From Desulfonatronospira thiodismutans ASO3-1 (GTDB taxonomy: Bacteria; Desulfobacterota; Desulfovibrionia; Desulfovibrionales; Desulfonatronovibrionaceae): a stretch of DNA of 64,000 bases. Shown here piece after piece: positions 49,301 to 63,525 of the stretch; the first letter of the stretch is position 1; the number at the start of each line of letters is the position of its first letter. The position numbers and the translations under genes are program-made. The notes below the pieces were generated by a model that saw nothing but the letters and a program-made list of their open reading frames with translations, was not told where the DNA came from and ran no database searches. The stretch lies in the NCBI RefSeq assembly GCF_000174435.1, contig NZ_ACJN02000001.1, forward strand, positions 1,229,658 to 1,293,657. The letters are read 5' to 3'.

Positions 49301-49388
49301 TTGCACGAATCGCGTCCGGCGCGAAACGTGCAAAACAGGACGGGCATGGGCGTAAGTTTACACAACGCGTCCGGCGCGAAGTGTGAAC
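49301..49388 (+). repeat. Two REP hairpins upstream of the RAYT gene
   Basis: REP1 (49301-49334) has stem TTGCACG/CGTGCAA around CGCG-TCCGG-CGCG. REP2 (49356-49388) has the same core with stem GTTTACAC/GTGTGAAC. Both point the same way. Confidence 0.85.
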
Positions 49389-49406
49389 TTAGAACGGCAG
49401 TTTGAT

Positions 49407-50312
49407 ATGGAGACGATGCCAGCAGGTAACGAACAGCGTGTATTTCGGGCCAGGTATAAGATCGATACACCTGGTCTGATTTCGCATATTACCCAGCGGG
49501 CAGCAGGCAAAGAGCCTTTATTTCTGGATGACAGAGATTATCTGACTATGCTGGGGCTCTTCAAGGAAAGCTCGGAAAAGTTCAGTCTTGATTATTATGC
49601 CTTGTGTCTCATGCCCAACCACACACACGCTCTTTTAAAGCCAAAGGAAAGGAATCTGGCCGTGGCCATGCGCTCAATATTTTCCAGGTACGCAGCCAAA
49701 TTCAACCGCAGGTACGAACGTCGTGGACATCTTTTTGGGGGTCGCTATCGTCAGTCCGTGTGCCTTGACGACACTTACCTGTTGACCGCATCGGTTTACA
49801 TACATCTAAATCCTGTCCGCGCCGGTCTGGTAGACGATGCACTTCAGTACAGGTGGACTTCAAGTGCTCTTTACTGCCAGGATAATCCCAAGGAATCCTT
49901 TATTGACCCGGGACCGATTCTTGAACTGGTGGATGATGACGGACAAAAGGCCCGCAGGAAATACCGGCGTATTCTGAAGAAAGCCAGGGGAGAGGAGCCT
50001 GAGAACGCCCTGGAGCACCAGGGGGCCATTGAAAGATTCTGTATTCGCCTTTCAGAGATTTTTCCTGGTTTGTTCAAAAGGCTTGGCGGGAAAAAAGATG
50101 CAGGTCAGGACCATACGCCTTCTTTGCTTGAACTGACCGAACTGGAGCAAAGGCTGCAGGACCTTGGCAATGCCCGTGCCCGCAACGAGGAAAGCAAAAT
50201 GGTCAGGAAATATATTGTGGAACAGCTTATTGCCCGGGGTTACAAAAAGACTGAGATCGCTGAGAAGCTGGGGATATCGCTCAGGAATGTTTATTATATC
50301 CTTAACTCATAG
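49407..50312 (+). CDS. REP-associated tyrosine transposase (RAYT, TnpA-REP)
   Basis: A ~301-aa Y1/HUH single-strand nuclease. Visible are HITQRAAGKEPLFLDDRDY, the HUH motif in LMPNHTHALL, the SIFSRYAAKFNRRYERRGHLFGGRYRQ block, and the candidate tyrosine region YLLTASVYIHLNPVRAGLV. It carries an extra C-terminal helix-turn-helix (KKTEIAEKLGISLRNVYYIL), as in the longer RAYTs. The start is uncertain: a GTG at 49383 lies inside REP2, while ATG 49407 lies outside it; neither has a good ribosome site. REP hairpins on both sides are its probable substrates. Confidence 0.88.
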   Translation: METMPAGNEQRVFRARYKIDTPGLISHITQRAAGKEPLFLDDRDYLTMLGLFKESSEKFSLDYYALCLMPNHTHALLKPKERNLAVAMRSIFSRYAAKFNRRYERRGHLFGGRYRQSVCLDDTYLLTASVYIHLNPVRAGLVDDALQYRWTSSALYCQDNPKESFIDPGPILELVDDDGQKARRKYRRILKKARGEEPENALEHQGAIERFCIRLSEIFPGLFKRLGGKKDAGQDHTPSLLELTELEQRLQDLGNARARNEESKMVRKYIVEQLIARGYKKTEIAEKLGISLRNVYYILNS

Positions 50313-56182: not shown

Positions 56183-56338
56183 ATTCCCACCATCGCGTTA
56201 ACCGCTCATACCCGGCCTGGTGACCGGGAGAGGTTTCTGGAGGCCGGAATGGATGGCTACATAGTCAAGCCGGTGAATCACGAGGATTTTCAGAGGGTAT
56301 TCAGTAAGTTTTTTGGAGAGAAGGAAATACAGGCCTGA
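56183..56338 (+). pseudogene. Response-regulator receiver domain, C-terminal fragment
   Basis: 51 codons reading PTIALTAHTRPGDRERFLEAGMDGYIVKPVNHEDFQRVF: the Thr/Ala of strand 4 and the conserved Lys-Pro of strand 5 in a receiver domain. The phospho-Asp half is missing. Upstream (56130-56178) lies a short CGGATATCGGA-type repeat at the break point. It belongs logically to the multi-PAS kinase. Confidence 0.75.
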
Positions 56339-56414
56339 CTTTCAACAATCCGGCTATAGGGCTGTGTAGTCCGGTATCAGATTTGAGTGACAGGGTGAAA
56401 CTTTGCAATTACTT

Positions 56415-56421
56415 GTTAGGT
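56415..56421 (+). other. 5' recombination boundary of integron-like cassette
   Basis: GTTAGGT matches the GTTRRRY core cut by integron integrases. The gene start is 21 bases further on, as in typical cassettes. Confidence 0.55.
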
Positions 56422-56441
56422 GTTAAGAGAAGGAGTTGGTC

Positions 56442-56945
56442 ATGGCTATCTCAAGAACGGTGATTACGGGTGGCAACTCTGTCTGTATCGTGCTGATGGC
56501 GTTGCTTTTCCTACAACCATTTATCGTGAATGCTGATGATTCGAAACCAATCGAGTGGCGAGAAGCCTTCGTTACTGTCGATGTGGATATTCGAGAGATT
56601 GAAGGGCATAAGGATCATGCTGTCGGGCTTATGCAACAGCGAGGTTTTGCCTTTTATGAAGATGAAGAGGTAGCAACGGTAAGTACCTGGCTTACTTTCG
56701 AGCGATCCGGTGCAAAAACGAATTACCGTGGATATGCGATTTACGCATTCCCCGACGGAGCTACCAAGATCGGCAGTTTTATCGGTACTGGAGATCCACG
56801 AGGCGAGCAAGCGGGGCAGTTCACTCTGGAGGGTGGAACGGGTCGTTACGAAGGTATCACCGGGCAAGGCAGCTTTTCGGGACAGGGGTTCCCTCCCCAT
56901 GGGGATATATACTTGGATGTCAGCGGAACCTACTCACTTCAATAG
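56442..56945 (+). CDS. Secreted beta-barrel-like protein, unknown, in integron-like cassette
   Basis: A 167-aa protein with a signal peptide (hydrophobic residues ~13-27, cleavage near VNA-DD). The mature part ends in GGTGRYEGITGQGSFSG...DVSGTYSL, which resembles allene-oxide-cyclase/dirigent-like barrels; the match is a pattern, not proof. ATG 56442 has AAGGAG 6 bases upstream. It lies between GTTAGGT (56415) and an attC-like site (56955-57014), so it appears to be a mobile gene cassette. Confidence 0.7.
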   Translation: MAISRTVITGGNSVCIVLMALLFLQPFIVNADDSKPIEWREAFVTVDVDIREIEGHKDHAVGLMQQRGFAFYEDEEVATVSTWLTFERSGAKTNYRGYAIYAFPDGATKIGSFIGTGDPRGEQAGQFTLEGGTGRYEGITGQGSFSGQGFPPHGDIYLDVSGTYSLQ

Positions 56946-56954
56946 GGCGGGATT

Positions 56955-57014
56955 GCTCAACAATTCCATCCAACCGACGTTAGTTCCTTTCGTGGCTGAA
57001 GGATAGCGTTAGCT
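56955..57014 (+). other. attC recombination site (59-base element)
   Basis: 60 bp running from GCTCAAC (R'') to GTTAGCT (R'). The left half CAACAATTCCATCCAACCG is very close to the TAACAATTC-ATCAAGCCG of classical attC sites. The right half CGTGGCTGAAGGATAGCGTTAG pairs imperfectly with it, leaving a short central loop. It starts 10 bases after the cassette gene stop. Confidence 0.7.
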
Positions 57015-57144
57015 CAGACTACGGCCATGGCATAGTCCTTTCCATTTATTCTGAAGACTGCCGGAAGAAAGCTTGAACCGGTCAATTCATGTGCTGCCTG
57101 CATCAGTCATGTCATTTGCTCCTGACACTCCCTGGCATAATGCC

Positions 57145-57180
57145 TTGACATCTATAATGGACCTCATCATAATATAATAT
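57145..57180 (+). promoter_or_regulatory. higBA promoter, possibly leaderless
   Basis: TTGACA (57145-57150), 17 bases, CATAAT (57168-57173). The toxin ATG is at 57181, with no Shine-Dalgarno sequence between. Confidence 0.55.
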
Positions 57181-57474
57181 ATGATAAGGACCTTTAAATC
57201 CGCCGACACAGAGGATATTTTTGATGGAGTGGCATCACAGGCAGCTCGAAGATGCTGTCCTCAAAACATCTGGCCGGTTACCCGCCGGAAACTGGATCAA
57301 ATCAACAGAGTTCGGGATGTCAATGAACTTAAATTGCCTCCTGGAAATCGACTGGAACGCTTGAAAGGTGATCGGGAGAATCAATACAGCATTCGCATTA
57401 ACCAACAATATCGCATTTGTTTTATATGGGAGGAAGGCGATGCCTATGAAATCGAAATCACAGATTGCCACTGA
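57181..57474 (+). CDS. higB: HigB/RelE-type toxin
   Basis: A 97-aa toxin: MIRTFKSADTEDIFDG, RRKLDQINRVRDVNELKLPPGNRLERLKGDRENQYSIRINQQYRICF and the acidic end. This is the HigB fold, a ribosome-dependent mRNA endonuclease. The toxin precedes its antitoxin and overlaps it by 35 bases. Confidence 0.93.
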   Translation: MIRTFKSADTEDIFDGVASQAARRCCPQNIWPVTRRKLDQINRVRDVNELKLPPGNRLERLKGDRENQYSIRINQQYRICFIWEEGDAYEIEITDCH

Positions 57475-57802
57475 TGCTGAGAGGCGGTTGCCAAGAAATC
57501 GTCCGCCGACACATCCAGGGGAGATGCTTTTTGAGGAATTCGTTAAGCCACTTGGGCTTACTCAAGTAGAACTGGCACGTTGTCTTGGTGTTTCTTACCC
57601 TCGTCTCAACGAAATTATCAAAGGCAAACGTTCAGTAACACCGGATACGGCATTGCGGCTTTCCCGGGTGTTGGGCATGTCCCCGGACTTTTGGCTTGGC
57701 CTGCAACAGGATTGGGACCTCTGGCATGTCATGAACAGCCCTGAAGCAGAAAATATCAATCGTCTGAAACCAATCCCCAGGAACCAACATTCTTTTGCAT
57801 AA
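57440..57802 (+). CDS. higA: HigA antitoxin
   Basis: A 120-aa XRE-type antitoxin: PPTHPGEMLFEEFVKPLGLTQVELARCLGVSYPRLNEIIKGKRSVTPDTALRL, then FWLGLQQDWDLW. ATG 57440 is chosen because GGAGG lies 7 bases before it, inside the toxin gene. It neutralises HigB and likely represses the promoter. Confidence 0.93.
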   Translation: MPMKSKSQIATDAERRLPRNRPPTHPGEMLFEEFVKPLGLTQVELARCLGVSYPRLNEIIKGKRSVTPDTALRLSRVLGMSPDFWLGLQQDWDLWHVMNSPEAENINRLKPIPRNQHSFA

Positions 57803-58160
57803 CCTTTTTCAGCATTTGCTATATGTTCAGATAACACTTGATGGCTGTAAGTAAGAATAATGTTGGCTCAGCCTGCGGCTATGATCAGGCAGTAGTCTAA
57901 TTCAATTATGTTCAAGACTGACACAACAAAGCTTGACCATTCAAGTTGGCTTAAACTTATCTAAGGGCATGAACGTAGCCTTGCACACCACAGGGTGATT
58001 TTTCAGTTTCCCAGCGCTAGAACCGACAAATAATGTGTTTACTGCCAAACCGTCCACCAACGCGTATGCAGCAGACAATCCCGTCGACAAGCAGGCTTGC
58101 CTCCGGTCTTGCTCCTGATCAGCCGCACATTATGCCAAAAATCATTGGACTTTTTTGGGC
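57803..58160. repeat. Intergenic region with degenerate spacer repeat
   Basis: 57863-57990 resembles 57008-57110 and 59848-59960: GGCTCAGCCTGCGGCT..., TCAATTATGTTCAAGACTG, AAGCTTGA and a ...TGAACGTAGCCTTG ending. No gene seen. Confidence 0.45.
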
Positions 58161-58188
58161 TTGACATTCAAATGCAAAGGTATATATT
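58161..58188 (+). promoter_or_regulatory. vapBC promoter
   Basis: TTGACA (58161-58166), 16 bases, TATATT (58183-58188), followed by the ribosome site GGAGG before VapB. Confidence 0.65.
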
Positions 58189-58220
58189 TTATGATATAGA
58201 TCGCTAATTTGGAGGATAAA

Positions 58221-58469
58221 ATGGATACTGCAAAATTATTTTTTAATGGACGAAGTCAGGCAGTTCGTTTGCCTAAGGCTTATCGATTCGAAGGAAAGGA
58301 AGTATACATTAAAAAAGTTTCTCAAGGAATTTTAATAATACCTAAAGATAAAACAGTATGGGGTGCTTGGGAAGAAAACTTAAAAAAATATGACGAACCG
58401 TTTATGACTGACAGGAATCAGTTCGATTCTCAACAGGAGAGGGATGGTTTAAATGATCTATTTGATTGA
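58221..58469 (+). CDS. vapB: VapB antitoxin
   Basis: An 82-aa SpoVT/AbrB-type antitoxin: [31 protein letters not shown] is the swapped-hairpin DNA-binding domain. The acidic tail [16 protein letters not shown] inserts into the toxin. GGAGG lies 5 bases before ATG 58221. It overlaps vapC by 17 bases. Confidence 0.93.
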
Positions 58470-58854
58470 TACCAATATTTGTATTTATTTAATGAACCAA
58501 AAACCCTCTAAAGTAATTCAAAAATTTAAAAACACAAAAGTTGGAGAGATCGGCATATCCACGATTACAGTATCCGAGTTAAATTATGGTGTTGCAAAAA
58601 GCAATTTAAAAAAACAGAATGCCCAACGACTTGAAGAATTTCTTACCCCATTTGAAATCCTGCCGTATGATGAGGCTGCATCAAAACATTACGGAATGAT
58701 TCGCAGTGAGCTTGAATCACAGGGCAAAGTTATTGGCCCTCTTGATATGCTTATTGCTGCTCATGCGCTAAGTGAAGATTTGGTGTTAATTACAAATAAT
58801 GAAAAAGAATTTCTAAGAATTAAATCATTAAAGGTTGAAAACTGGGCTAAGTAG
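58453..58854 (+). CDS. vapC: VapC toxin, PIN-domain ribonuclease
   Basis: A 133-aa toxin with the PIN acidic residues in [37 protein letters not shown] and ITNNEKEF. VapC toxins usually cut tRNA or rRNA. It uses AT-rich codons relative to the core genes, which fits recent transfer. Confidence 0.95.
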
Positions 58855-58996
58855 AGGAATCGACACATAACAGAAAAATTTGAGGCTTCCCCCATTGGTT
58901 GGGAAAAAATAAGCTTGGTTAATGTGCAATCCGGCTATGCCTTAACAGTAGTCAGAAAGTGAGCTTGAAAGGAATACCATGCGAAAGGATCATTTG

Positions 58997-59347
58997 CTAG
59001 GAGGGTGGGACCACCTCAGTTTGCTGGTCATTGACCCAGGCATAGATAATGATCTTCGAAGCAGAGTCGTAGCGAAAAAAGAGGCGAAATCGCCTGCCTA
59101 TCCTGGCCCTGCACCAGTGTCTGTGATCCTCTCCCAAAGTGTTGCCCTGGCGGTACACGGGATGACCAGGATCGGCAGGTATGGTCCTTAACATCAGCCT
59201 TGATAGCGCATGATACAGCTTGACATTTGCATTGGCCAGCCAGCCTTCAGGGTCGGAAGACCTGGCGCGTTGGCAAGCTGCAGAAAGGCGTTTCAGCTGT
59301 TGGATCAGGCAGTCATGAAAGAGCAGCGTCCAGCCATGGCTCTGCAT
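58997..59347 (-). CDS. yhaV: YhaV-type toxin, C-terminally shortened
   Basis: A 116-aa protein matching YhaV in SHGWTLLFHDCLIQQLKRL, HPVYRQGNTLGEDHRHWCRARIGRRFRLFFRY and IIYAWVNDQQT. YhaV is normally ~154 aa and continues with a conserved TYG...DAY segment. Here the frame diverges after NDQQT and stops, so ~35 residues including catalytic-site elements are missing. It is probably inactive. It is coupled to the antitoxin gene upstream. Confidence 0.8.
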   Translation of the reverse strand: MQSHGWTLLFHDCLIQQLKRLSAACQRARSSDPEGWLANANVKLYHALSRLMLRTIPADPGHPVYRQGNTLGEDHRHWCRARIGRRFRLFFRYDSASKIIIYAWVNDQQTEVVPPS

Positions 59348-59661
59348 TACAGGTGCACATCTCCAGAGATTTCCTGATCATGGCCTTGATCGTATTCAAG
59401 GGCCGTGACCAGGCTTTTGACAAGATCGTCCGGGAGAACTGAAACATGGCGGCCGTGCGCGATGTCCTGTTCCAGCAGATTCAAAAAAGAGGCTACAGCC
59501 GGGTCATTGTGCTCATCTTCGGGGCTAATTACGATTTCATTGCCGCGGAGGGTGAAGGCCAGCCTGGACCCTGCATCAATATTCAGAGCCTTACGGATGG
59601 CTTTGGGCAGGGTCACCTGGCCCTTGGAAGACATGGTGGCCATTTCTCTAATTGTCGTCAT
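59347..59661 (-). CDS. prlF: PrlF antitoxin
   Basis: A 104-aa AbrB-type antitoxin: ATMSSKGQVTLPKAIRKALNIDAGSRLAFTLRGNEIVI, then DPAVASFLNLLEQDIAHGRHV, typical of PrlF/SohA. AGGAG precedes the ATG. Its stop codon touches the yhaV start. The palindrome GTAAGAATTATTCCTTAC upstream is a likely operator. Confidence 0.9.
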   Translation of the reverse strand: MTTIREMATMSSKGQVTLPKAIRKALNIDAGSRLAFTLRGNEIVISPEDEHNDPAVASFLNLLEQDIAHGRHVSVLPDDLVKSLVTALEYDQGHDQEISGDVHL

Positions 59662-59686
59662 GCTCGTTGCTCCTGTTTCCTGTAAA

Positions 59687-59704
59687 GTAAGAATTATTCC
59701 TTAC
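59687..59704 (-). promoter_or_regulatory. prlF-yhaV operator palindrome
   Basis: GTAAGAATTATTCCTTAC is nearly perfectly symmetric. On the minus strand, TTGACA lies just upstream and the -10 region overlaps the palindrome's edge. Confidence 0.55.
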
Positions 59705-60043
59705 CATGTCAATCATAAACATTCTTTCAAACGAAAATCAGCAAACAGTTTTAGTTGAAGCAGGCCATGGAGCCGCCCTGGCCAGAAAGGCCATAGAGGC
59801 AAAAAGCTGCAAACTTGCGTAAAATTGTTCTGAATATATGGGAAAACATCGGCTAAGCCTGTGTAGTACTTCTTCTCAATTATTCTGAAGACTGGCAAAG
59901 CAAGGCTTGATAATTCAGACAGGGTAGGACTTTTGTCAATGCATGCACGTAGTCTTGACCCTTGGCAAATATTTTTCAACGCTATAGCTATAGAGAACAT
60001 ATCCTTATCCCAGATTGACATGAGAGAATAATAGTAGCAAGTA

Positions 60044-60072
60044 TTGACATAGATCATACCTAAGGTTATACT
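60044..60072 (+). promoter_or_regulatory. mazEF promoter
   Basis: TTGACA (60044-60049), 17 bases, TATACT (60067-60072). A GGAGGAG site and the MazE start follow at normal distance. Confidence 0.65.
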
Positions 60073-60094
60073 TTTTTATCAGGAGGAGCAGTCA

Positions 60095-60349
60095 ATGAGG
60101 AGTGTTAAGACCGCAATATCAATCGAAAAACCATTGTTTGAGGAAATCGACAACTTAGCCGATGAAATGAACATGTCTCGGAGTCGTGTTTTTTCGCTGG
60201 CGGCAAAAGAGTTTATTCAACGTCATAAAAACAAAGATCTGCTGGATGCTATCAACTCTGCATATGGCGATGTCACAGACGAAAAAGAAGCATCTCTTAA
60301 AACTGTGATGCGTTCCAGGCATCGCAACATGGTTCGAGATCAATGGTAA
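60095..60349 (+). CDS. mazE: MazE-like antitoxin, RHH type
   Basis: An 84-aa antitoxin with the ribbon-helix-helix VKTAISIEKPLFEEIDNLADEMNMSRSRVFSLAAKEFI (residues 4-41) and a toxin-binding tail. GGAGGAG lies upstream. It overlaps the toxin gene by 7 bases. Confidence 0.88.
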   Translation: MRSVKTAISIEKPLFEEIDNLADEMNMSRSRVFSLAAKEFIQRHKNKDLLDAINSAYGDVTDEKEASLKTVMRSRHRNMVRDQW

Positions 60350-60708
60350 TTAATCAAGGCGACATATTCTGGATAGACCTTACGGAGCCTTCCGGATCCA
60401 AACCAGGATACCGACATCCTCATATCATTATTCAAAACAATCTTTTCAATCGTAGCCGTATCAATACCGTTACTGTTTGTCCTTTAACATCCAATCTTAA
60501 AAGGGCAGCTGTGCCGGGGAATGTCTTGCTGAAAAAGGGCGAAGCAAATTTACCCAAAAAAAGTGTGGTCAATATTTCTCAAATCTTCACAGTAAATAAA
60601 AGTGACCTATCAGAAAAAATCGGATCCTTAAAATTCGGACGGTTTCAAGAAGTTCTTCAAGGTATAAAGCTGATTACCGAACCAAGAGAAGTGGATGATA
60701 AGGAATAA
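60343..60708 (+). CDS. mazF: MazF/PemK toxin, mRNA interferase
   Basis: A 121-aa toxin with the MazF barrel marks INQGDIFWIDLTEPSGSKPGYRHPHIIIQNN, NTVTVCPLTSN and KKSVVNISQIFTVNKSDL. It cleaves single-stranded mRNA at short motifs. Translation is coupled to MazE. Confidence 0.94.
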   Translation: MVINQGDIFWIDLTEPSGSKPGYRHPHIIIQNNLFNRSRINTVTVCPLTSNLKRAAVPGNVLLKKGEANLPKKSVVNISQIFTVNKSDLSEKIGSLKFGRFQEVLQGIKLITEPREVDDKE

Positions 60709-61204
60709 AATTTGAAAAACCCAACCAACCGCATCAAAACGATCTCAAAAACCCATCCTAATGCTGGCATTATACAACAATTAATGACGGATCCATTGTA
60801 TACCTTGGCGGGGATATCAAGGTGTATCTGTTTAGCGCTTTTAAGGAAAGCAGGGGACAGGCACTCCGGGACCCAATAACTCTGTTCTGGAAGCCGACGA
60901 TATGGTTCGAGGAGCCACTGCGGTATTTCAGGAAGTGCTGGGCCTACAATGATCAGAAAGCCAGGGGCTGGGCAGGTGATTTGCCGGGTTGGGCGAGGTT
61001 TTGCCTGGTGAAGAGACAGGTGACAGGAATCCCCTGTGAAGTCCCTCAGTTAAACAAAAGAGGGTTTAACCGGGTAAAATTCGGGAATTCCAAGGAGTTG
61101 TTTCATCACGCCACAGGCGTGACAGGCAGTAAAAACAAAAAGTTGTAGAATTGGTTTGTTCCTGAATTCTTCATTTCCTGACTTTTTGCAGGTGCATTAT
61201 CCTT
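60709..61204. other. Intergenic region with truncated mobile repeat and unidentified remnant
   Basis: 60822-60882 is half of the 151-bp element seen at 49044, ending in its central hairpin. An open frame after it (WFEEPLRYFRKCWAYNDQK) does not match a family I know and has no start of its own. A CACGCCACAGGCGTG palindrome lies at ~61109-61123. Confidence 0.5.
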
Positions 61205-61876
61205 TTATGAGCAGTAATCAGATATTCTTTCAGAGTTCAGAGGATACTTGGTAATACTTTCAAATGAAACATCAGAGCACGCCCTGATGAGAATCTGCCT
61301 GTCCTGATTACTCAATTCAGAAAAATCACCTTCTTGAAAATAGGTCAAAGTCCGCACTATTTCCTGCACCGGTGCAAAAGGCCAGAGCGATAAAACGCAT
61401 GAAAGACCCTGCTCCAGTTGGAAGCCTTTTTTCAGCATACAGGCAATATCTATATAGTCTTTAGCTTCCACTCTCTGTAAAACCGTTTTAAGCTTATGGC
61501 CCATTAAATCCAGAAGTGAAGCGACAAGGACAACTTTATCATCAGTTTCCAGGGGTGATTTGACACGTCCTGTTTTAATGCCTCCAAAGAAAGAAATCTT
61601 TACAGGATCATTATCAGTTAAAACAATGGTTAAGGTGTCTTCCTGAGCCTGAAGAACCTCATAAGTTCCAAGAGAAGAAACCATATGGCACAAACGGTCA
61701 CTTTCAAAAGAGTCATGTGAGAAGAAATCAAAGTCAACTGATGATCTATGTCCCAGATGCAAAGCGATAGCCGTGCCTCCATAAAGAACAAAGTTTTTCG
61801 GAATGACTCCAAGCCTGTTCCATACGTTTCTTTGTGCTGGAGGAAGGATATTCAGATCAGGTTTAAATATATACAT
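61205..61876 (-). CDS. AbiEii/AbiGii-type nucleotidyltransferase toxin
   Basis: A 223-aa protein with the nucleotidyltransferase core LYGGTAIALHLGHRSSVDFDFFS (GG...D-x-D, residues ~32-54) and the following K-x-D region VEAKDYIDIACML. AbiEii relatives add nucleotides to tRNA and arrest growth. The stop of the preceding small gene overlaps its start by one base, a toxin-antitoxin-like arrangement. Confidence 0.85.
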   Translation of the reverse strand: MYIFKPDLNILPPAQRNVWNRLGVIPKNFVLYGGTAIALHLGHRSSVDFDFFSHDSFESDRLCHMVSSLGTYEVLQAQEDTLTIVLTDNDPVKISFFGGIKTGRVKSPLETDDKVVLVASLLDLMGHKLKTVLQRVEAKDYIDIACMLKKGFQLEQGLSCVLSLWPFAPVQEIVRTLTYFQEGDFSELSNQDRQILIRACSDVSFESITKYPLNSERISDYCS

Positions 61877-62184
61877 CAGGGTGTGACACTCTTCTGCCAG
61901 GTCCTTGTGGGCTGCTCAGGGATTTCGTTTTCATTGCCGGCTAAACCCAGTCTATAATGCCAGAAATGCCAGGCACGGGCAGTAAAAATACCAATTGGTG
62001 GATTTTTCAGGACGTCGGTCAATTCATCTCTGGTTATATTTTGCTCCAGCCAGTATGTATCTTCCAGTGTGCCAAAAGTCATAAGGGCAGCTAAAAAATG
62101 TCTTTTGTTCTGCAAAGCCTGTTCAGGACTTTTCCACCAGACATATTTCTTTGCCAGTCTGCGAAGTTGTTCATTGTCAGGCAC
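61876..62184 (-). CDS. Partner protein of AbiEii-type toxin, probable antitoxin
   Basis: A 102-aa protein with LRRLAKKYVWWKSPEQALQNKRHFLAALMTFGTLED and FTARAWHFWHYRLGL, a pattern common in small genes ahead of AbiEii-type toxins. I start at GTG 62184 because GGAG lies 7 bases before it and the residues above it are not family-like; an ATG at 62241 is possible. The role is inferred from linkage. Confidence 0.7.
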   Translation of the reverse strand: MPDNEQLRRLAKKYVWWKSPEQALQNKRHFLAALMTFGTLEDTYWLEQNITRDELTDVLKNPPIGIFTARAWHFWHYRLGLAGNENEIPEQPTRTWQKSVTP

Positions 62185-62241
62185 GATTTTTCTCCGGAAA
62201 ATATTTCTCGATGGGTTGTCAGGTTGTGAGTTGAAAGTCAT

Positions 62242-62568
62242 GAGTTTTTTCAGGAGCTGAAAAAAGTTTATGATTTAAGGGAATCAGGGGCTTAACGCAA
62301 ATTTTGGAACAATATGTTGGCGGTGAAATTTACTTTAAAATAATTTGCCAGGTAACCATTCAGGGGGGGGCCTGGTGCCAGGGACTAAAACTGAGTACCC
62401 CCTGAATGCTTAGCTTTAATCTTCAAAACCGTGTGTACGAAGCACCTGCCTGCCCGCTAAAATTCCGCAGGACAGCAAAGCGCATTTTAGTCGGGTGTAC
62501 GTCTGCAGGCTTCCCGTGCCTAAGAAGATTTTTGGCACCCCAAAGGATTCCTGCCTGACAGATGGGGA
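62242..62568. repeat. Repeat-rich intergenic region
   Basis: A short third member of the GTAACCATTCAGGGGG family (about 62352-62412, right end CCCCCTGAATGCTTA) is followed by a composite hairpin element (62415-62550) with a CTAAAAT/ATTTTAG stem-loop (62452-62496). The element is related to 22290-22460 in inverse order. Confidence 0.65.
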
Positions 62569-63525
62569 TTAGCTGTCATTCAAAACTTCGTCCATGCTCT
62601 GGGCAGTAAGGATACGTTCTGACCATTGCCTCAGTTTTTGAGAATCGGCAGACTCAATCAATCGTTGCTTGTCTTCCGGGATAGGACCAAACTTAAGGGC
62701 CAGCTGGCGCAGAAGCAGCTGGGCTTCGCCTTTTTGCATGCCCTGTTGCATGCCCTGCTGCATGCCTTTCTCTATGCCCTCCTGCATGCCCTTTTTAAGG
62801 GCGATTCTTTCTATGCTTGTTACGTATGGCATTTGATACTCCTCCTCTATTTGACGAATATCACTGAAAATTTTGGATTCCAGGTCTTCAGGTAAGGACA
62901 TCAGCCAGTCCAGCACTTTAAACAGATCCAGGATTCTCTGACGATCCCAGCCCCGGGCAAAGAGAATGCGGATCAGCCGGATCTTGGCTGCGTATCGCTC
63001 CTCTGGTTTGCCCTGGGTCTTTTTGGTCAACAGGTGCGCTGCTGTAACCAGAGCAAAAGCATTATCCGATTCAAGCAGTTGATCTATTTCCGATTCCCAG
63101 TCCAGAAGCTTGACAGCTGGGAAATCAAACCGCATCCGGCACCCGTAGAGCTCATAGCCAAAGCTGTCCGGATGCCAGCCCGGACTGGTATCAGCCAGCA
63201 CCGCAAGGCTGGCCAGGGGCTTGTCGTACTGATCAAAAAGCCGGTAATGGTAGGTGAACATCCGCCTGGCAAAAACATCCTCGGCTTCTCCCTGCACCTC
63301 AATATGTACGCAGACCCAGCCTTCATCTCCACTCAACCTGCGTACCCGCACCAGCTTGTCCACATACCTGCGTCCAAGTTCAGCATCCTTAGTCACCTGC
63401 TGTAATTCTTTGTCCAAAAAATCATACCCTGAACTCCAGTCAATGTCAGCAAAAATTCCAGGGAAATAAAACTCCTTGTTTAACTTGGTGAACCAAATCC
63501 CTGGGAGTTCCCGCAGGGGGTTCAC
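62569..63525 (-). CDS. Rpn-family recombination-promoting nuclease, altered N-terminus
   Basis: A 318-aa PD-(D/E)XK protein: ADIDWSSGYDFLDKELQQV, the catalytic VCVHIEVQGEAEDVFARRMFTYHYRLFD, and PEERYAAKIRLIRILFARG. The C-terminal tail holds repeated GMQ/GMQQ units (IALKKGMQEGIEKGMQQGM) and a DUF4351-like end. Family members usually begin with a DxxFKxLL...FF helix. Here the first ~20 residues come from a CCCTGCGGGAACTCCCAGGG hairpin region, starting at a GTG, so the true start was probably lost. Such nucleases are linked to RecA-independent recombination. Confidence 0.75.
   Translation of the reverse strand: MNPLRELPGIWFTKLNKEFYFPGIFADIDWSSGYDFLDKELQQVTKDAELGRRYVDKLVRVRRLSGDEGWVCVHIEVQGEAEDVFARRMFTYHYRLFDQYDKPLASLAVLADTSPGWHPDSFGYELYGCRMRFDFPAVKLLDWESEIDQLLESDNAFALVTAAHLLTKKTQGKPEERYAAKIRLIRILFARGWDRQRILDLFKVLDWLMSLPEDLESKIFSDIRQIEEEYQMPYVTSIERIALKKGMQEGIEKGMQQGMQQGMQKGEAQLLLRQLALKFGPIPEDKQRLIESADSQKLRQWSERILTAQSMDEVLNDS

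Follow-up and report, generated by a model that had tools for sequence, protein, structure and literature searches.

How does a single gene for a secreted protein come to be followed by the recombination site of an integron cassette when its genome shows no integron integrase? The gene lies in the 64-kb window analyzed here (the whole stretch of DNA studied, 64,000 nucleotides from Desulfonatronospira thiodismutans ASO3-1), and an earlier note had read it as a lone integron gene cassette. The cassette is real, lying far from any integron, and it is a kind of relic that is already known, a SALIN (single attC lacking integrase). We consider it likely that a single cassette was put by an integrase at a genomic G^TT, as in insertions of the attG type, and that the integrase was later lost.

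The first line of evidence is the 60-bp site that the note had placed behind the gene. The site was found on the forward strand at 56955-57014, directly after the stop codon and in the sense orientation, with R'' GCTCAAC at 56955-56961, R' GTTAGCT at 57008-57014, a crossover at G57008^TT, and the R''/L''-L'/R' layout with both cores present. A structure search with an attC covariance model gave it 29.6 bits (E = 2.5e-4 in the 64 kb, filters off; E = 0.016 over the whole genome), with a runner-up at 13.8 bits. The model was trained on 17 sites, 10 from resistance-plasmid cassettes and 7 from near intI in genomes of the same order, and the window site was left out of training; because RNAalifold returned 0 pairs on the training sites, the known attC pairing was put into the model by hand. 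When all 60-mers of the window were ranked by identity with seven 60-bp attC sites from elsewhere, the same site came top (38/60 identity with attC-aadA1; next best, 33/60). Matches of similar strength in its own genome (G000) and in related genomes lie mostly in cassette contexts; those of at least 29 bits are found beside intI (G001, contig C9), in orphan clusters (G000 C2 and G022 C203), and behind genes (G000 C4 and G001 C10). The top score in three congeners that lack intI was at most 25.4 bits.

The site is like the class 1 60-bp attC sites (aadA1, qacL, and aac(6')-IIa) in its length, its R''/L'' half, and its spacing, but it differs from them in carrying an unpaired loop in place of the central stem and in the weak, incomplete complementarity of R'' and R'. 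The bottom strand takes an attC-shaped fold of -4.9 kcal/mol that is no better than that of shuffled sequences (z = -0.06). Because the fold energy is about that of shuffles and the central stem has given way to a loop, the site looks worn and may be decayed. If the gene had instead spread by homologous recombination, IS elements, or conjugation and were followed by an attC-like 60-mer by chance, the absence of a recognizable attC from most homologues would be explained, as would the IS3-type element on the flank of the G001 copy. Against this, a site of this score stands right after a stop codon, on the sense strand, at 60 bp and with both cores; no attC match at E <= 0.05 appeared in five MAG genomes without intI (~17 Mb in total); and a degenerate attC is common to the window and locus L032, with part of it also in L026. 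Given the position, orientation, and score of the site, we regard chance resemblance combined with unrelated transfer as the less likely reading and, in our estimate, a very improbable one.

The cassette gene itself, which encodes 167 amino acids from ATG to TAG at 56442-56945 on the forward strand, is conserved in ten loci. It is preceded, as the note had observed, by GTTAGGT (56415-56421) and by a ribosome-binding site, AAGGAG (56430-56435), that sits in a block conserved in L026, L029, and L032. Of the 593-bp cassette that the note had drawn from GTTAGGT to the 60-bp site, the right end held up, but the left edge at 56415 gave way to one at 56422. GTTAGGT fits the core consensus GTTRRRY fully, and GTTAAGA (56422-56428) is off at the last base; the complement of R'' GCTCAAC agrees with GTTAAGA at 5 of 7 positions and with GTTAGGT at 4 of 7. 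The block homologous to G001 spans 56422-56968, beginning at the G^TTAA core and ending within the attC, and leaves GTTAGGT outside. In G001, the homologue begins exactly behind an attC-like site (13.5 bits only), where GTTAATA at the junction aligns with GTTAAGA. Because the homology edge falls there and R'' pairs better with GTTAAGA, we prefer this sequence as the 5' core (R'). A start at 56422 is thus more likely than one at 56415 and would give a cassette of ~586 bp (56422-57008, forward strand), with crossovers at G56422^TT and G57008^TT; GTTAGGT would be an alternative start or flanking target. At the other end, an unexpected similarity between L032 (4569-4582) and the window carries on for ~14 nt after R' (GCTCA-ACTACGG; shuffle p = 0.001), which would count against a cassette end at that point.

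The flanks suggest what the cassette may have entered. To the left lie the C-terminal remnant of a response regulator (56183-56332, forward strand) and a partial repeat. To the right, on the forward strand at 57019-57116, is a dispersed repeat with copies in the same genome and in congeners, and the GTT at its left edge is the candidate target. The right junction therefore lies at the edge of a repeat like those beside the toxin-antitoxin (TA) modules, in line with the earlier description. In congeners, a regulator end of the same kind is separated from the same repeat by 60 bp in L068 and by 41 bp in L082; in the window, the distance is ~690-730 bp. Since these are paralogous loci, they display the arrangement without the insert and do not prove an empty site. 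Relatives lacking the insert, to which the note had looked for a check, are accordingly represented by analogous flanks in congeners but not by a strictly orthologous empty site, none having been found. As a candidate attG insertion, then, the locus has a G^TT target and empty arrangements that are analogous and paralogous only. The attG consensus is GWT.

As in the window, the gene in G001 is followed by TA modules, and integron arrays of hypersaline settings commonly contain TA cassettes (PMC7923331), so the locus could be the last piece of a degraded array in which HigBA, VapBC, MazEF/PemK, and AbiE were once cassettes whose attC sites have eroded. However, no site above 8 bits occurs in 57015-62600. 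Repeats like those next to the TA modules stand behind response-regulator genes as well; tried as degenerate attC sites, they received no score from the covariance model, and the left flank, tried as a second attC, reached 5.5 bits. We think an array relic of this sort unlikely.

Insertion of a single cassette by an integrase since lost, the reading we prefer, can be compared with what the rest of the genome contains. G000 comprises 4.1 Mb and is 97.7% complete, and a search with the TIGR02249 profile found no integron integrase in it; the best matches reach 88 and 65 bits, where the cut-off is 265, and resemble XerC/XerD recombinases. The note's lack of a visible integrase is borne out genome-wide, and G000 holds no complete integron, with intI either in cis or elsewhere in the genome. 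True intI was present in 9 of the 297 genomes of the order (strict search) and was absent from G000 and its six congeners.

The cassette has no companion locally but is not the only one in its genome. At G000 C2:771441-774101 (L057 6930-10101), four attC sites on one strand, scoring 27-39 bits, each stand behind an ORF; in three of these cassettes, the 5' core R' is exactly complementary to R'', and none of the four genes belongs to a Pfam family. A second lone cassette, at C4:322037-322709 (L058 4038-4710), carries a GNAT acetyltransferase gene, an attC of 29.9 bits, and exactly complementary cores (GTTATGT and R'' ACATAAC), and there is a weaker lone site (24.6 bits) at C1:1126554. Lone cassettes therefore fit this genome, which, given the four-attC cluster and the GNAT cassette, probably once met an active integrase. 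The last attC of the C2 cluster has beside it an N-terminal tyrosine recombinase fragment (PF13495), and the same fragment adjoins an attC in the congener G022 (L061 2018-2590).

The gene is rare, occurring in 4 of the 297 genomes of the order. Homologues with 60-84% protein identity are found in Desulfovibrionales, in Gamma- and Alphaproteobacteria, and in a Brocadiaceae MAG. Within the family, identity is 61% and 77% for the copies in two congeners and 84% for one in a different genus; outside the order, homologues come from MAGs named Aquisalimonas, Wenzhouxiangella, Rhodospirillales, Rhodovibrio, Ectothiorhodospiraceae, and Brocadiaceae, several of these host records being short MAG contigs that are possibly misbinned. 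Sample codes suggest that the hosts come from soda-lake sediments. The copy in congener G022 (61%) groups with those of Ectothiorhodospiraceae and Brocadiaceae, and the copy in the window falls among the remaining ones (support 87/97). The relatives carry the gene between differing flanks in unrelated hosts, as expected of a unit that moves as a whole, and a search for phage or plasmid carriage of the cassette gave no match. Judged from these comparisons, soda-lake bacteria that are unrelated to one another have exchanged the gene. G001 (same family) and an Aquisalimonas genome, both among the closest hosts, have intI plus attC. In the Aquisalimonas MAG G297, which carries a 79% homologue, intI scores 491 bits and there are several attC sites (C85:19998 and C216; L099, L106, and L107); this could possibly be the source integron.

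The note had called the cassette protein secreted and of unknown function. The N terminus indeed looks like a signal peptide, with VNA-DD at its end, and no sequence family matched in Pfam (E <= 10), NCBIfam, or PDB, but the fold can now be named. The predicted structure has one helix and eight strands (mean pLDDT, 83.9), and Foldseek retrieved 2q03 (E = 4.6e-5), dirigent proteins, barrel cyclases, and the DUF3224 protein 2ooj, with a probability of 1.00 for 2q03, 6ooc, and others at 14-17% identity. The protein is thus predicted to be a secreted eight-stranded barrel resembling the DUF3224/dirigent/allene oxide cyclase fold. It differs from those barrels in sequence, and the DUF3224 profile (PF11528) did not match, so the likeness is one of fold only. 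From the fold, we infer that it most likely acts in the periplasm as a barrel that binds a small ligand or has an isomerase-like role. The alignment of ten homologues has no internal gaps and shows a conserved motif, FPPHGDIYLDV, and dN/dS values of 0.10-0.30 for the coding sequences indicate purifying selection. By all appearances, the family is new and undescribed.

With exactly one local attC behind a gene and no integrase, the locus is like the SALINs of IntegronFinder, and the four-attC cluster of the same genome is like a CALIN. SALINs usually go unreported by default, as two attC sites are required (PMC9024848); the window case differs from the usual ones in that comparisons support both its boundaries and the transfer of its gene. 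Insertion of cassettes at attG sites, outside the platform, is reported from the work of Loot et al. 2024 (Nat Microbiol), as cited in PMC12444791 and PMC12901181. The window case is alike in the position of the cassette outside the platform and in a crossover at G^TT, but it is natural, old, and found in a soda-lake anaerobe, with the integrase absent and the event reconstructed.

In such an event, a circular cassette whose gene, for the secreted beta-barrel protein, lacks a promoter would have been inserted by an integron integrase, through the folded bottom strand of its attC, into the G^TT at the left edge of the repeat; both the integrase as agent and the exact target base are what we infer. 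The integrase may have come from a former resident integron, of which the orphan four-attC cluster would remain, or may have acted in trans. Once it was gone, the cassette would have become fixed and its attC would have begun to decay. No promoter-like site was found in or just before the cassette, and the gene would presumably be expressed by read-through from upstream.

Cassette insertion outside integrons has been shown by experiment. Natural, old cases with comparative support would indicate that such insertion leaves lasting chromosomal genes, here in lineages not known for integrons. We offer as a tentative idea, one rather more likely wrong than right, that soda-lake integrases routinely seed single cassettes into GTT sites of neighboring species and that in this way secreted beta-barrel proteins of a new family spread across phyla via integrons and were then fixed outside them. 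G000, in which at least two cassettes stand alone and one array is orphaned, provides a test of cassette survival after integrase loss, and the window cassette draws attention to a protein family that is undescribed and subject to purifying selection.

The repeat at the right junction belongs to an intergenic family of 60-100 bp, with members in the window at 57019-57116, 57866-57944, 58925-58990, 59867-59952, and 56346-56386 and with short inverted repeats (CGGCTATGGCATAGTCC...TCTGAAGACTG...AAGCTTGAA). An inverted repeat at 57782-57868, tried as an attC, fell below threshold. A dense run of TA modules (HigBA, VapBC, PrlF/YhaV-like, MazE/PemK, and AbiE) occupies 57181-62241; the intergenic repeats adjoin such modules and also follow response-regulator genes, in congeners as well as here. 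A Y1 (IS200/RAYT-like) transposase encoded at 49383-50312 might move them.
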